DNA of 64,000 nt from Mariniblastus sp. (GTDB lineage Bacteria > Planctomycetota > Planctomycetia > Pirellulales > Pirellulaceae), in the NCBI GenBank assembly GCA_022447605.1, contig JAKVBG010000004.1, forward strand, positions 1 to 64,000, given 5' to 3'. A model generated the notes under the pieces. That model ran no database searches and was not told where the DNA came from. It saw only the letters and a list, made by a program, of their open reading frames with translations. Shown here piece by piece: positions 41,059 through 49,692 of this stretch (position 1 is its first letter; each line of letters starts with the position of its first letter). The position numbers were made by a program, and so were the translations under genes.

Positions 41059-42411
41059 ATGGCATTCTTTGGCACCAAACCAAATTTAACCGGCAACGAA
41101 AAAGCGCGAATTGAATTTCACCTGCAACAGATTCTGGATTGCGTCGGCCTCGAGCCTTTGCAAATTCCGTTCATCGATCCACAGCCATTACTGACGTCCG
41201 GCTCCGATCTTTCGGCATGCACGCAAGCGTTCGCCGATCACTTGTCCCATGACATTGGGCAACTGCGCATTGAGGTGGTCCCCGAGCAGCTGGAGAAATG
41301 CGGTGGGGGCGGCTGAGGGGGCGGCTCCTGTGAAGGCCTGGGCGGTCTGCCCGGAAAATACGATGCCGATCAACGGCAGATCACCCTCAACACGGACCTG
41401 GAGCAGGAACCCTTGTTGACAGCCGCCAGTCTGGCACACCACATGGTCACAGACTGGCTCCAACAAAATGAATTCAACTATGCGCACTTTCCGGAAGTCG
41501 TCGACCTGGCCACGGTCATGACGGGACTCGGCCTCCTGCGCAGCCAGATCCCGCTGGTCAGTACCAGCCCCCCATTTTGGGATTCCACCCTCTGGACGAC
41601 TTTCCCTCGGCCGTTCCTCGATGGCCAGGGCATGGCTTATGCCATGGCCCAGGCCGCCTGGTGCCGTGGTGACAAGACACCGGAGTGGACCGCCCAGCTG
41701 CCCAACGAAGTCAGGCGCCCAATGCTCAAGTCGATCAAGCACCTGTTCAGCAGTGACGACTCTTTCTTCCACCCCTCCACGCCGGTCTCAAGTTTTGAGC
41801 ACTCGCAGAGTGAGTGGCTGCAACAGGCCAGTAACCCGTCGACTTCCAGGCAGATCATCGCCATTCGCCACTTGCAGTTCCACGAGCATCCCGACAGCCC
41901 GCAAGTGGTACTGATCGGCGACAAACTCAGGTCACCCGAGCGTTCCGTCCAGTTACATGCCATTGCGGCGACCGAACGGATGAAAGTCAGGAACGACCAG
42001 GTCGTGGATGAGTTGCGGATGTTACTCAACCATCGGGATGACCAGGTGCGTTCCAAGGCGATCTGCGCACTGGCACGGTTTGCCGCGTTGGATGAAACGG
42101 CCATCGATGTGGCGGCTCGCATGCTGGATGACCAGCACCGGTTTGTCGCCTTTGCCGGCCTGGTCGCCCTCGGTTCGCTGGATACGCTGCCGGCCCACGT
42201 CATGCCGGCCGCTAACCGCGGACTGGTTCGATCCCTGCAAACTTGCGACTACGAACTGGTGGGCCTGTTTTCGGCCGGGTTCCACCGCTGGCTGGATGAC
42301 CCGAAAGGTCATTACCAGGGCCTGCTGCAAGAAAAAAATCGGGAGTACTTGGAAATTGCTTTGGAAGTTCTGGAAAACGTCCAGCACGAGTTGGTCAGTC
42401 TCAATGAGTGA
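41059..42411 (+). CDS. Putative selenoprotein with in-frame TGA (Sec86) and HEAT-like repeats
   Basis: One frame runs from ATG 41059 (AGG six bases upstream) to TGA 42411, 450 residues, broken only by TGA at 41314-41316. Both sides are in the same frame, so no indel is needed. The TGA would be residue 86 in a glycine-rich C81-G4-U86-GGGS-C91 motif. A hairpin with a GGTCT loop follows (see 41337-41354). Residues 110-165 resemble the core of a family of zinc-peptidase-like proteins, though the expected HExxH is LAHHM and is not convincing. Residues about 260-400 contain HEAT-like alpha repeats (RSPERSVQLHAIAA, HRDDQVRSKAICALARF). No signal peptide. The function is unknown. The alternative is a nonsense-mutated pseudogene. 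Confidence 0.75.
41314..41316 (+). promoter_or_regulatory. Candidate selenocysteine (UGA) codon
   Basis: TGA in frame within the HEAT-repeat gene, between GGC and GGG codons. It is flanked by cysteines five codons before (41299-41301) and five after (41329-41331). Confidence 0.7.
41337..41354 (+). promoter_or_regulatory. Bacterial SECIS-like hairpin
   Basis: CC (41337-41338) pairs with GG (41353-41354), T41339 is bulged, and GGGC (41340-41343) pairs with GCCC (41349-41352) around the loop GGTCT (41344-41348). Twenty-seven bases separate the TGA from the loop. The E. coli fdhF SECIS also has a bulged U below a GGUCU apical loop. The stem can also pair without the bulge (T41339-G41353). A coding hairpin by chance is possible given the GC content. 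Confidence 0.65.
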
Positions 42412-44634: not shown

Positions 44635-45465
44635 TCATTTCCCTCCCTTCCCCCCTTTTTGACCGCCCTTCCCCTTGGCCGAACCGCCCTTGGCGGGACG
44701 CCTTTCGACCGGTCCAAAATCAAAGTTGTCTCCAAACAAATCGTCAATCTTCTGCTGCTGCGAACGGTCGAGTGTCTTGACCAGCCGCTGACGGGCCTTC
44801 TCGCGCAACTCGGCAACCTGCTTGGCGATATCCGCTTCGAGCTTCTCCGCTTCCTCTTGCAATGCCTCCGCCTGGCGATTGCTGATTTCGAGTTCCGAGC
44901 GCATCGGTTCACTGGTGATGGCCTCTACGAAAGTCCGTCTCCGCAAGAGCGATTGGGCGCGAATCTGTCGCAGGCGATCCATCTGGTGAGGCAGCAGGAC
45001 CGTTTCGAGCTCGCGGCGGGTTTGATCCTGAATGTCCCGGACCTGGCGGACCAATCCCTCACGGTCACTAAAATCCATTTCGCGCAGCTGCTCGGCCACC
45101 TGTCGTTGGGCATCGGCCGCGCGCTCCAGAAACTGCTGATACTGTTCGTCGACGATTTCCAGGTCTTCACGAACCCGCGGGTTGCCGATCAGACCCATCA
45201 GGCTGGCTTGCCCAGCATACTGCTGGCTGGTCGACCCGACAGGCCGGTTCAGTGCGATATCATTGAGCAGGGGAATCATCGCCCGCAATTCCCGGTTTCC
45301 CTCCTCGCCATACGCCATTCGCTTGGCGGCCCCCATGAACTCACCATATTGGCGGTTAGACTCAAAAATGCCGACCGGTCCTTCTTCTTGATCGCCTTTG
45401 CCTTGTCCCAGCACGACGATAGGGCAGGTGAAAATCAGGAGTAAGAGGCAAGATAGAAGTTTCAT
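44635..45465 (-). CDS. Secreted coiled-coil protein with Gly/Lys-rich tail
   Basis: 276 residues from ATG 45465; AAAGGAAG lies just upstream. Signal peptide about 1-21 (ending VVLGQ). The middle (about 70-240) is mostly helix with many charged residues and heptad-like stretches (EDLEIVDEQYQQFLERAADAQ, EALQEEAEKLEADI). Two LxxxPxxxxRxLExxxLxPxQ-like turns (ELETVLLPHQMDRLRQ; LVKTLDRSQQQKIDDLFG) recall the CpxP/Spy-like periplasmic repeats common in planctomycetes. The tail (about 250-276) is glycine and lysine rich (KGGSAKGKGGQ). Function unknown. Confidence 0.7.
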   Translation of the reverse strand: MKLLSCLLLLIFTCPIVVLGQGKGDQEEGPVGIFESNRQYGEFMGAAKRMAYGEEGNRELRAMIPLLNDIALNRPVGSTSQQYAGQASLMGLIGNPRVREDLEIVDEQYQQFLERAADAQRQVAEQLREMDFSDREGLVRQVRDIQDQTRRELETVLLPHQMDRLRQIRAQSLLRRRTFVEAITSEPMRSELEISNRQAEALQEEAEKLEADIAKQVAELREKARQRLVKTLDRSQQQKIDDLFGDNFDFGPVERRPAKGGSAKGKGGQKGGKGGK

Positions 45466-45769: not shown

Positions 45770-46672
45770 TTACTTGACCCCTCGCTCGAACTCGACCACC
45801 AACGGGTAATGATCGGAGATTTTACCCAGCCGATCCGAGACCCGGATCTCGGCCGTCCGGGCTGATTTGGCGAGAGCTTGATCGGCGAAGATAAAGTCAA
45901 TGCGTTGCCGCTTGCTTTGCAGCTCGGGCAGGTCGGCCGACCAACGGGGAATCGTGACGGGCGATGGGCAGGAGTATTTCTGATCGGGACGGTGGGCCTG
46001 CACCAGGTCGACCAATCCGATCGATTCGAAAAGATCCACCACGCCGTAACGAGGCGTCACGGCCGAGCGGGAATCGAGAAAGGCCTGATCCCGCCGGGAA
46101 TGGTTGTTGAAATCTCCCAGCAACACGACCGGACGACCGCTTTCCAATAACGTTCGGATCTTGCTGGCCACCTGCTCCGCTTCATGATCCTTGCCCGGCC
46201 AGAAATGGACCACAAAAAAATCAACGCCGGCCGTTCGCGCATGGAGGTAGCCATGATGGAAACCTTCCACCTGCCGATCGATCAACTCGATCGGCTGACT
46301 CGAGGTCAGTCCGACAGGAAACCCCTGCTCCTTGAGAATCACCGCATGTTCGTGTCCCCAGCGAGAGGCCAACCTCTTCAGTGATTCCGCGTTCAAGCCG
46401 TTCAGTTCCTGCAGGGCAACCACATCTGGCGAAAGCTCCCGAATCCACTGGACACCCTCATCCACCGCTTTTCCATGGTTGAACGCATACAACACATTCC
46501 AGTTGAGGACCTGCAACCGCTCGGTCACGGCCGTCGCTTGATCTGCCTGCTCCTGGGCTGCGGCCTGCCGGGCCCACCCAGACGGGTCATTCACGGCCAG
46601 TGGCAAACCGAGCAGTGGCAGGCAAGCCAGCCACCAGGCGATCAGCGACAACGATCGGCCCAGCGTCATCAT
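45770..46672 (-). CDS. Secreted endonuclease/exonuclease/phosphatase (EEP) family protein
   Basis: 300 residues with an N-terminal signal peptide (about 1-40, ending AAAQEQ). The EEP fold is marked by LQVLNWNVLYA (first strand), ALQELNG (Glu metal ligand), LLGDFNNHS (Asp/Asn site) and ISDHYPLVVEF (catalytic His) near the end. Family members cut nucleic acid, sphingomyelin or inositol phosphates; secreted bacterial forms often take phosphate from organic phosphoesters. Its ATG overlaps the stop codon of the double sulfatase (TGATG), so the two are translationally coupled. Confidence 0.85.
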   Translation of the reverse strand: MMTLGRSLSLIAWWLACLPLLGLPLAVNDPSGWARQAAAQEQADQATAVTERLQVLNWNVLYAFNHGKAVDEGVQWIRELSPDVVALQELNGLNAESLKRLASRWGHEHAVILKEQGFPVGLTSSQPIELIDRQVEGFHHGYLHARTAGVDFFVVHFWPGKDHEAEQVASKIRTLLESGRPVVLLGDFNNHSRRDQAFLDSRSAVTPRYGVVDLFESIGLVDLVQAHRPDQKYSCPSPVTIPRWSADLPELQSKRQRIDFIFADQALAKSARTAEIRVSDRLGKISDHYPLVVEFERGVK

Positions 46673-49600
46673 CGCGCCCCCTCGCCACCGGCAGGCACCT
46701 CGCCTGCCACGGCCTGGGACCGGGCGGCCAACTGTTTTTCTTTCAACAAGATGCGGAACTGTTCCAGACGTTCCTTTTGCTTCGGGTTGTTGGCCAGGTT
46801 GTTTTTTTCAGCCGGATCCCGCGTCAAGTTGTACAACTCTTCGCCATCGGGCCACTGACCGTAGCGCCACCGCTGGTTTCGCAAAGCGTAACCGAGCTGG
46901 TTGCCCCGCCGCACCACGCTGTAAGCATGTCGTTTCTGACCCGGCCGCTGCGGACTCTTGAGCAACGGCACCAATGAGGACCCCTGGACTTCGGCCGGCG
47001 TCGCCAACCCGGTCAACTCGGCCAGGGTCGGGTAGATATCGACCAGTTCCACCATCGCCTGCGAACGGGAACCGGCCTCGGTCATGCCGGGTACATGCAC
47101 CATAAAAGGAACCCGTGTGCCGATATCAAACAGGGTCACCTTGCCCCACATGAAATGGTCCCCCAGGTGAAAGCCATGATCGGAAGTGAAAACCACGATC
47201 GTATCCTCCCACAACCCTTTCTCTTTCAAGCTGGCCAGCAGCAGACCGATCTGGGCATCCACAAAGGAAACACAGGCGTGGTACGCTTGCATGTACTGCC
47301 GTCGCCGGGCGTCGTTTTCAACTCCCAGCTCGAAGCCGAAACCGCTGTAACGCCTGGACATGGCCGAGGAGGGAAGACTCTCCCACAGGTCCGGCCGGTC
47401 GGCCTGGTAGACGAGTGAATCCAGCGGATACCGATCGAAGTACTTCTGTGGCGCAAGGAAAGGGACATGCGGTTTCTGGATACCACAGGCGATGAAAAAA
47501 GGCTGGTCACCGTAGCTTTCCTCATCCAGCCAGGAGATCACCTGGCGAACGTTCTTACCATCCTTATGCTGCGCATCCTGCAGTCCGCTCGGGCCAAAAC
47601 CGGGTGGCGTCTGTCCGATCAGCGGGCCAACCTGGGTAGGCAGATACGCTTTCCAGGCCTGGCGGTTCTCCCTCGCTTCGATCGACCCATGCTTGGCCTC
47701 AAACGCCTTCCGCGCCGCCGCCACGCGGGGCAGTTCCTCGTTATCGAACCGCTGAAATTCGGACCAGGCCAGTTCGCCCGGTTCATGCCGCGGCGAATGG
47801 AACACCTTGCCCACGCTGGCCGTCCAGTAACCGTTCTGCTTGAAAAGCTGGGGGAGCGATGTTGAACCCGGTCTCGTTTGACGGATATCGAGCCGGTTGT
47901 CGAGGACTCCCGTACTCTGCGGGTAGAGTCCGTGCAGGAACGAGGCTCGCGAAGGTCCGCAAACCGGGTACTGGCAATACGCATGGGAGAACGTCATCGA
48001 ATCCTGGGCCAACTGGGCCAGGGTCGGGGTCTGGATCGGCTCATAACCGGAAGGCGAAACGTGGGTGTTCAGGTCATCGCAGACGATCAGCAGCACGTTC
48101 TTCCGGTTGCCAGCGGGCAGTTGTTTTTTCGCGGGCGTTGGTCCGCCAGTCCGCGCTTCGTTACGCATCGCTTTCCGCTTGGCGCGCCGCTCGGTCCGTT
48201 GCTGTTGCCTTGCGTTTCCGGGGGGTGATGGCGTGTCCGCCCGGTCAACCCGCTTCGGTTTGCCACTGATCGGGTCCGGCATCTGCTGAATCCACTGATC
48301 GTAGGAAGCCTGCAGCTCACGGACCTTGGCCGGGTGTTGCTTCACCAGGTTTTCCGTTTCGCCAGGATCCGAACCGAGATCAATCAGTTCGATCACCCCC
48401 TGTTTCTGATGCAGTTTCCAATCTGCCTGGCGGACGGCCCACTCATCTTCCGGACCCTTGCTCCAGTAGAGCGCGGTGTGATGATCGCTCGCCTGGCCCG
48501 TCAACAGGGGCAACAAGCTTTTGCCATCGAAAGCTTCGCCCGGGGGACGCTCGCCGGTCGCCTGCAACACGGTCGGTAGGATATCGAAGGAGATGACCGG
48601 TTGGTCCACCGTCCGGCCGCCGCTGAACCGGTCCGGCCAACTGACGATCAACGGCGTCCGGATGCCCCCCTCATCGAGACTCCCCTTGAAACCGCGCAGC
48701 GGCGTATTGACTGCGCCCATCGCCTTGGAGCCGCCATTGTCAGTAAGAAAAAAGAGCAACGTATTGTCAAACAGATCTTCCTGTTTCAACTTGGCCACGA
48801 CTTGGCCCACCCCGTCATCCAGGTGTTTGAGCATCGCCATCAGGACAACCCGATCTTCGGCCAGACCGGGAAATTTTTTTCGGACAGCCTCGATATCCTC
48901 CGCTGGCGCCTCAGCCGGCGCGTGGACCGCGTTGTAGGCCAGGTACAGGAAGAACGGTTTCGACTTGTTGCGATCGATGAAATCGACCGCTTCCTCGGTC
49001 AACCGATTGGTCAGGTACCCCTGATCGTTGATTCGATCCTTGTTCCGGTAGATGGGATGATTGAATTTCCCCTCGCTGTCGCTTCGCAGGTTGAAATAAC
49101 TGTGGCCCCCACGGCCCATGAACTTGTAGCACTCGTCAAACCCGCGATTCATCGCGTGCCATTTCAACTCCGGGTAATCCGTATCGAGACCGAGGTGCCA
49201 TTTGCCAATGGCGGCCGAAACATAGTCATCCGGCAGGTAGGCAGGGAAGATTTTCTTGGCCGGATCAAAACCCCGGCCGCCGTCGCCGGCCGTATAGACG
49301 CCCTCCCGTTGGGAGTAACCCCCCAACATGATGCCGGCCCGGGTAGGTGAACAGACATGCCCACTGGTATAAGCCTGGGAAAACTGGACACCCTCCCTGG
49401 CCAGGGCATCCATATGGGGCGTGGAGACTTCCCGGGCATGTTCCGGGTTCAGGCTGATGTCGGCATACCCCTGGTCATCGGTCAGGATGACCACGATGTT
49501 GGGAAGATTGCTGCCCCGTTTTTCATCACCGACAGCCAGGCCGGCCAACAGAGAGCACCATCCGGCCAACAAGGAAACGTACACAAACCAGGCCTGACCT

Positions 49601-49692
49601 CGACCACTCCCCCGTTCGATCAGGGAAGCGGGACGAAGAGAGAGGACCGACGGCCGGCAATCAGCCGGACTGGAGGAGAGCGGGTTTGTCAT
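46669..49692 (-). CDS. Bifunctional fused double sulfatase
   Basis: 1007 residues with two complete type I sulfatase domains. The first (about 60-480) has TDDQGYAD with Asp72-Asp73, the CSPTR motif with Cys114 (formylglycine precursor), and a TDNGG metal site at 317-321. The second (about 530-990) has CDDLNTH with Asp539-Asp540, the CGPSR motif with Cys578, and a TSDHGFHLGDH metal site. A basic linker (about 485-530) separates them. The first resembles arylsulfatase A, the second iduronate-2-sulfatase. A hydrophobic segment at 32-54 is likely the export signal. It could remove sulfate at two positions of one algal or animal polysaccharide. It is coupled to the phosphatase gene. Confidence 0.93.
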   Translation of the reverse strand: MTNPLSSSPADCRPSVLSLRPASLIERGSGRGQAWFVYVSLLAGWCSLLAGLAVGDEKRGSNLPNIVVILTDDQGYADISLNPEHAREVSTPHMDALAREGVQFSQAYTSGHVCSPTRAGIMLGGYSQREGVYTAGDGGRGFDPAKKIFPAYLPDDYVSAAIGKWHLGLDTDYPELKWHAMNRGFDECYKFMGRGGHSYFNLRSDSEGKFNHPIYRNKDRINDQGYLTNRLTEEAVDFIDRNKSKPFFLYLAYNAVHAPAEAPAEDIEAVRKKFPGLAEDRVVLMAMLKHLDDGVGQVVAKLKQEDLFDNTLLFFLTDNGGSKAMGAVNTPLRGFKGSLDEGGIRTPLIVSWPDRFSGGRTVDQPVISFDILPTVLQATGERPPGEAFDGKSLLPLLTGQASDHHTALYWSKGPEDEWAVRQADWKLHQKQGVIELIDLGSDPGETENLVKQHPAKVRELQASYDQWIQQMPDPISGKPKRVDRADTPSPPGNARQQQRTERRAKRKAMRNEARTGGPTPAKKQLPAGNRKNVLLIVCDDLNTHVSPSGYEPIQTPTLAQLAQDSMTFSHAYCQYPVCGPSRASFLHGLYPQSTGVLDNRLDIRQTRPGSTSLPQLFKQNGYWTASVGKVFHSPRHEPGELAWSEFQRFDNEELPRVAAARKAFEAKHGSIEARENRQAWKAYLPTQVGPLIGQTPPGFGPSGLQDAQHKDGKNVRQVISWLDEESYGDQPFFIACGIQKPHVPFLAPQKYFDRYPLDSLVYQADRPDLWESLPSSAMSRRYSGFGFELGVENDARRRQYMQAYHACVSFVDAQIGLLLASLKEKGLWEDTIVVFTSDHGFHLGDHFMWGKVTLFDIGTRVPFMVHVPGMTEAGSRSQAMVELVDIYPTLAELTGLATPAEVQGSSLVPLLKSPQRPGQKRHAYSVVRRGNQLGYALRNQRWRYGQWPDGEELYNLTRDPAEKNNLANNPKQKERLEQFRILLKEKQLAARSQAVAGEVPAGGEGAR

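Follow-up and report, generated by a model that had tools for sequence, protein, structure and literature searches.

An in-frame UGA that probably encodes selenocysteine in a HEAT-repeat protein of Mariniblastus, a likely new selenoprotein family of the Pirellulaceae

The window, by which we mean the whole 64,000-nucleotide stretch of Mariniblastus sp. DNA that was analysed, contains on its forward strand a frame of 450 codons plus stop (41059–42411) whose sole internal stop is a TGA at 41314–41316. The frame starts with an ATG at 41059, two codons downstream of an in-frame TTG, and finishes at a TGA terminator at 42409–42411, confirming the earlier description of one continuous frame broken at this TGA alone. 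The residues before the internal TGA are ...PEQLEKCGGGG and those after it are GGGSCEGLGGLPGKYD... The gene sits on contig C138 of a 4.99 Mb genome (G000) assembled in 203 contigs. A ribosome binding site claimed for it in the earlier note could not be substantiated: by eye, the 25 bases upstream of the ATG contain no Shine–Dalgarno core, and a core (GGAG, GAGG, AGGA or AAGG at −18 to −4) is found in only 3 of 25 genes of the same genus that start with ATG, a count that leaves out the 26th gene, L017, which has no ATG within reach. Scans for promoters and terminators showed no signal exceeding that of shuffled sequences. The features of the gene, all on the forward strand, are as follows.

41059–42411, forward strand: complete predicted selenoprotein gene; 450 residues, of which residue 86 is Sec; final TGA stop included
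41065–41790, forward strand: N-terminal domain, residues 3–244, homologous to HExxH zincin-like planctomycete proteins, with a degenerate metal motif
41299–41331, forward strand: Gly-rich loop C81-GGGG-U86-GGGS-C91, the putative Sec loop, disordered in the model
41314–41316, forward strand: predicted Sec codon TGA, residue 86; the column has TGA in 38 and TGC or TGT in 13 of 51 full-length orthologues
41338–41354, forward strand: SECIS-like hairpin, a 6-bp stem (41338–41343 with 41349–41354) and the loop GGUCU (41344–41348)
41437–41451, forward strand: relict HExxH motif, H127 H M V T131, from the alignment with HExxH relatives
41494–41496, forward strand: E146, which in the alignment falls on the E of E..TDL in the HExxH relatives
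41923–42171, forward strand: HEAT repeats, residues 289–371, a match to Pfam HEAT_2 (PF13646)

A search of 60 genomes, the window's own included, gave matches in 33. A full-length orthologue, with 37–76% identity to the window's gene, was found in 25 of the 27 other genomes of the same genus and was not found in the remaining two (G010 and G013), both of which have Sec machinery. All 26 same-genus genes have exactly one internal stop, which is always TGA and always falls in one alignment column, inside GG-U-GGG. When 241 Pirellulaceae genomes were searched, 61 matched at E 1e-12 or better, and 50 of these carry 51 full-length orthologues; one genome, G201, has two TGA-form copies (L106 and L109). 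The other 11 matching genomes were left uncounted, their matches being partial, distant and without internal stops. Position 86, which the earlier note had singled out for comparison among homologues, is TGA in 38 of the 51 orthologues (from 37 genomes) and Cys in the other 13; no other residue is found there, and never TAA or TAG. The strains with the Cys form include Rhodopirellula rubra CECT 8075, Rubripirellula obstinata CECT 8602, Rhodopirellula sallentina SM41 and Rhodopirellula maiorica SM1. A class-wide search of 397 genomes, Pirellulaceae included, gave matches in 33. A 39th TGA gene (L132, contig C208 of G540) is cut off at a contig end in the genome of another family; its TGA and hairpin are intact, and GGGSC is replaced by SGVSGDS, so that it has no C91. 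The contig could be misbinned or a contaminant.

The strength of selection on either side of the TGA was estimated by the Nei–Gojobori method (own script) in 8 pairs chosen among the TGA forms. The dN/dS ratio is 0.04–0.38 before the TGA and 0.05–0.11 after it, the downstream value being the lower one in 6 of the 8 pairs; the value of 0.38 rests on 7 differences, and in three pairs dS exceeds 1 for one or both parts. Constraint acts on both parts of the gene, the pattern that a single full-length protein should give. The HEAT_2 match, which lies after the TGA, scores about 32.6–32.7 bits against a cut-off of 27.7 and, with the low dN/dS there, bears out the claim that the downstream part is coding.

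The genome of the window has selA (573.5 bits, cut-off 267.9), selB (377.1 bits, cut-off 242.25), selD (270.8 bits, cut-off 125) and tRNA-Sec (68.7 bits, cut-off 47), the last also called by ARAGORN as tRNA-SeC (tca), so that the selA, selB, selC and selD set named in the earlier note as a check was found entire, each member above its cut-off. The selD match (L052, G000 C160:164144–165052) lies within a frame of 733 residues which by eye is a fusion of Ndh with SelD whose SelD portion contains CLGC. Of 14 control genomes, those with a match above cut-off number 1 for selA, 2 for selB, 2 for selD and 5 for tRNA-Sec. The tRNA-Sec model is imperfectly specific: four control genomes besides E. coli exceed its cut-off, some of which we take to be non-users of Sec, and with a looser setting there are 10 further matches below the cut-off in the window's genome. 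We take as evidence that Sec decoding is in use in this genome a SelW-like ORF (PF10262, 56.2 bits, above cut-off) with a TGA in CNQ-U (L142, G000 C146:4797–5006), which would be its second selenoprotein gene and one from a known family. PF10262, the one known selenoprotein family covered here, was searched for in 14 genomes and gave 14 matches in 11 of them, 12 with one TGA, the position of the TGA being inspected in the window's genome only.

Among the 37 genomes with TGA forms, selA is found in 32, tRNA-Sec in 33, both in 30 and at least one in 35; for one of these, G021, the sole machinery match is a selA fragment below cut-off. Neither is found in G004 and G023, which are 80% and 71% complete, respectively. 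In the 13 genomes with Cys forms, which are 97–100% complete, there is no selA or tRNA-Sec at all. Over 52 genomes (the 50 with orthologues plus G010 and G013), selA turns up in 34 genomes and tRNA-Sec in 35. The comparison thus shows UGA where the Sec machinery is predicted to be present (35 of 37, the other two genomes being incomplete) and Cys where it appears absent (13 of 13). The Fisher value of 3e-10 for this association ignores the origin of the Cys forms in one clade, and the thirteen cases in which Cys goes with a missing machinery may therefore trace back to a single event.

In the tree of the orthologues, the Cys forms fall in a single clade (support 100/100) and require one change. 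Two Sec forms, G209 and G210, together make up its sister group (support 96/92). One Cys genome, G197, is placed in genus g79 together with Sec forms, yet its gene clusters with the other Cys forms. With a Sec-form sister and a root placed at the midpoint only, without outgroup, a change from Sec to Cys is favoured over the reverse.

The SECIS-like hairpin that the earlier note had placed at a suitable distance after the TGA could be located precisely. Counting the U of the UGA as 1, positions 25–30 pair with 36–41 around a loop at 31–35. A 6-bp hairpin at UGA+24 to +40 with the loop RGUYU is present in all 38 TGA forms. Scored as at least 5 of 6 pairs plus a loop NGU, it is found in 38/38 at codon +8, and the next best of 441 codon columns has 9/38. 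Covariation was assessed on 35 distinct rows against 500 shuffles and against slid versions of the stem. The stem cells are paired in 98.1% of cases versus 92.9% in shuffles (0/500 as high), 3 of the 6 pairs are changed on both sides (7/500 as high), doubly changed cells number 11 versus 1.9 (0/500 as high), and the covariation score is 0.251 versus 0.142 in shuffles (0/500 as high) and at most 0.127 in slid versions. Sequence relatedness inflates these shuffle tests; the loss of pairing and loop in the Cys clade nevertheless argues that the hairpin is functional. In the 13 Cys forms, positions 28 and 38 pair in 2, 29 and 37 in 5, 27 and 39 in 8, 30 and 36 in 12, and the outer two pairs are kept in all 13; one Cys form, L104, retains the whole stem with a different loop. 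Codon +10 is GGT or AGT, and its third base is T in 38/38 TGA forms versus 1/13 Cys forms; elsewhere in these genes GGT makes up 28% of Gly codons and AGT 49% of AGY. Codons +8, +9, +11 and +12 likewise belong to the sites with the strongest synonymous conservation. Minimum-energy folds of longer stretches vary, the hairpin being missing from some folds of the 57 bases after the UGA, and the local fold energies of TGA forms (−7.4 to −13.7) and Cys forms (−5.5 to −13.0) overlap, which is why the hairpin was tested directly. Rfam gave no match at 41200–41500 up to E 1.

According to the text available of PMC1088965, a bacterial SECIS is a hairpin directly downstream whose apical loop is small and contains a G. 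A close parallel is E. coli fdhF (MG1655), the formate dehydrogenase H gene that serves as the type for bacterial selenoprotein genes and their SECIS, in which an in-frame UGA is likewise followed by a hairpin in the coding region with GGUCU at its tip, and in which a U precedes the loop's second G by six bases as it does here (U17 and G23 in fdhF, U26 and G32 here); U26 is found in 35 of the 38 TGA forms and is C in 3. In fdhF, U17, G23 and U24 are presumably SelB contacts. Unlike in fdhF, the tip here is 9 nt further from the UGA, U26 can pair (U-G) and is not clearly bulged, and the protein is unrelated.

Comparison of the orthologues thus indicates that the UGA at codon 86 has been kept by selection together with a conserved SECIS hairpin. 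We consider it highly probable (about 0.92) that UGA 41314 encodes selenocysteine, a reading whose support is close to the most that sequence comparison can give; the selenoprotein would likely be of a new family. This is the proposal with which the earlier note began, and it is supported by a column that contains only Cys or TGA, by the machinery and by purifying selection after the TGA. From the known bacterial mechanism, SelB bound to the hairpin would deliver Sec-tRNA-Sec to UGA 86, where Sec would be inserted, and translation would then continue to the proper stop.

Other accounts of the UGA fit the comparison less well. A nonsense pseudogene, named earlier as the main alternative, or a one-base sequencing error could also leave a lone TGA in a frame that is open elsewhere, and the assembly of this genome is fragmented; but the same TGA recurs in 38 genes of 37 genomes and is never replaced by TAA or TAG, the hairpin is conserved, and selection is purifying on both sides of the TGA in the 8 pairs, and we give this account practically no credence. 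Pseudogene and sequencing error were both rejected on these grounds. The residue inserted is invisible in DNA, and an open frame across the UGA would look alike if it were decoded as Cys by a Cys-charged UCA tRNA, as Trp or as Gly, or if the code were reassigned. Global reassignment was rejected, since UGA is the terminator of 11 of the 26 same-genus orthologues, the window's included. Decoding as one of these residues is very unlikely in view of the co-occurring Sec machinery, the replacement of UGA by Cys where that machinery was lost and the fdhF-like hairpin tip. It might also be supposed that the UGA is a selenium-dependent switch, the functional product being the N-terminal piece and read-through being regulatory, given that UGA recoding in E. 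coli is partial (30–40% in the text available of PMC4513850). The cut would fall inside the N-terminal domain as modelled, the downstream part has the lower dN/dS in 6 of the 8 pairs and the frame is uninterrupted in the Cys forms, all of which make such a switch extremely improbable.

An AlphaFold2 model of the protein, built with 29 sequences, has a mean pLDDT of 85.6, falling below 50 at residues 80–92, and the Sec loop thus appears mobile in the model. The loop motif is GGUGGG followed mostly by [ST]C. C91 is found in 36/38 TGA forms and 13/13 Cys forms, with Ser in L026 and Val in L034; its absence from these two and from the partial copy L132 means that the U–C pair is not universal. A Cys at the C81 column is found in 26/38 TGA forms and 0/13 Cys forms, a Cys at residue 85 in 0/38 TGA forms and 10/13 Cys forms, and C396 in 51/51 orthologues. 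Most characterised selenoproteins have a thioredoxin-like fold, as do the SelW-like/Rdx selenoproteins, whose TGA-containing genes (PF10262) are found in the same genomes as the gene described here. The SelW-like/Rdx motif is CxxU, whereas in the present protein the spacing is U-x4-C, within a Gly loop, and neither UxxC nor CxxU of the thioredoxin type is found. No thioredoxin fold is among the Foldseek matches listed for the full model or for the N-terminal domain.

The N-terminal domain aligns over its whole length, including the segment E..TDL..V..GLG, with three HExxH proteins of about 250 residues (L036, L038 and L058, from G058, G042 and G055), apparently of a zincin-like family; a comparison with their profile (hhalign) gave an end-to-end match with a probability of 98.6 and E 6e-16. 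These relatives keep HExxH, have no Gly-Sec loop and stop before the HEAT region, and Pfam searches of partial stretches of L036 and L038 gave no family above cut-off. In the 51 orthologues of the window's gene the motif is a relict: at residue 127 an H is found in 31, an E at the next position in none and the second His in 1. E146, aligned with an E that is the putative third ligand in the HExxH relatives, is kept in 51/51. As the HExxH zinc-binding motif is lacking, we do not file the protein as a metallopeptidase; by motif, its N-terminal domain would be a relative and not a member of that group. A Foldseek search with the model of the domain gave 27 matches, none significant, among them the small metallopeptidases selecase (first, E 0.55) and jannalysin (third, E 2.1). 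A paralogue in the window's genome (L054, G000 C13; 22–23% identity) also has HEAT repeats, combined with what looks by eye like a comparably degenerate N-terminal domain, and differs in having no TGA and no Gly-Cys/Sec loop.

Helical repeats span about residues 250–444 in the AlphaFold2 model, and HEAT/armadillo-type repeats are among the best 50 Foldseek matches listed for the full model. The description of the gene as a HEAT-repeat selenoprotein is therefore correct as to the HEAT_2 match after the TGA and needs amending as to the site of Sec, which is predicted to lie not in the repeats but in the degenerate zincin-like domain at the N-terminus.

For the function of the protein, where our reading has motif and fold as its whole basis, we lean slightly towards a redox selenol: Sec86 would be carried in a mobile Gly loop on a zincin-like domain that no longer has its metal motif, and its selenol would form a transient bond with Cys91 (U-x4-C). 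Sec86/Cys91 would then serve for thiol/selenol redox chemistry or redox sensing, and a protein partner or substrate would be held by the HEAT repeats at the C-terminus. The exchange of Sec for Cys, mostly with a second Cys alongside, is as expected if the chemistry of the site is redox, and fits metal binding too. The protein might instead be a selenoprotein in which Sec86 and its Cys neighbours bind Cu, Hg, Zn or As with no selenenylsulfide cycling: U86 is flanked by C81 and C91 in a flexible loop, residues 85 and 86 are adjacent cysteines, followed by C91, in 10 of the 13 Cys forms, and a ZIP-type transporter gene adjoins the window's gene and also the genes of two relatives. But the Cys of the C81 column is missing from 12/38 TGA forms and 13/13 Cys forms, C91 is missing from 2/38 TGA forms, and the ZIP gene is found at only 2 of 29 loci, several with short flanks; we regard metal binding in place of redox cycling as rather unlikely. 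More speculative than the redox selenol itself, and to be held only tentatively, is a history in which a dead scaffold of metallopeptidase type was re-armed with Sec: the zinc site would have decayed, the Gly-Sec loop beside the old active site would have taken over catalysis with the HEAT repeats delivering substrate, and after loss of the Sec trait one lineage would have been rescued by Cys, mostly as a vicinal pair. We know of no selenoenzyme on a metallopeptidase-type (zincin-like) fold.

The gene neighbourhood, compared at the 29 loci within at most 3 kb of flanking sequence, is uninformative. ZIP and esterase genes are found at 2 loci each and a counterpart of the hypothetical gene at 44635 at 3; ThuA-like, acyltransferase and LepA genes are found at 1 each, as is a weak sulfatase match. 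On the reverse strand of the window, 46669–49692 encodes a protein of 1007 residues with two sulfatase-domain stretches.

NCBIfam 20.0 gave matches only far below their cut-offs, and none over cut-off to any selenoprotein family. Table 1 of PMC13188914 (2026), in the text available, has 119 prokaryotic selenoprotein families or subfamilies, some credited to Haft and Tolstoy 2025; they have mostly a single Sec, many are predicted from TGA/Cys pairs plus SECIS, and no entry there names HEAT repeats, a zincin-like domain or GGGUGGG. TsoB, also in that table, has U-x4-U in a rhodanese/DsbD-like protein. The text available of PMC12013277, PMC2398784, PMC9312934, PMC4807772, PMC5330540 and PMC1088965 likewise shows no selenoprotein with HEAT repeats or a zincin-like domain and no GGGUGGG, nor were any of the features sought found in PMC3834832. 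The word "Planctomycetes" is not mentioned in the available text of several selenoprotein papers searched for it; PMC4807772 refers for the selenoproteins of two planctomycetes to a supplementary table. The earlier claim that the family is undescribed agrees with its absence from NCBIfam 20.0 and from Table 1 of PMC13188914, and we consider the family likely to be new, as judged from these two sources and from the text available of the other papers named here.

Matches to selA are present in 134 of the 241 Pirellulaceae genomes, 120 of them above cut-off, which is more than expected, and the weak matches in some genera may be SelA paralogues. Most Sec users in the family would thus be without this selenoprotein, and it would not be what maintains the Sec trait in most Pirellulaceae. 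An annotation that reads the UGA as a stop would be expected to split the gene in two. To the 119 families and subfamilies of PMC13188914 the protein would add one from Planctomycetes whose scaffold is not the thioredoxin-like fold. With Sec and Cys orthologues in related genera, the family provides a natural experiment on the benefit of selenium and on how a protein survives its loss.
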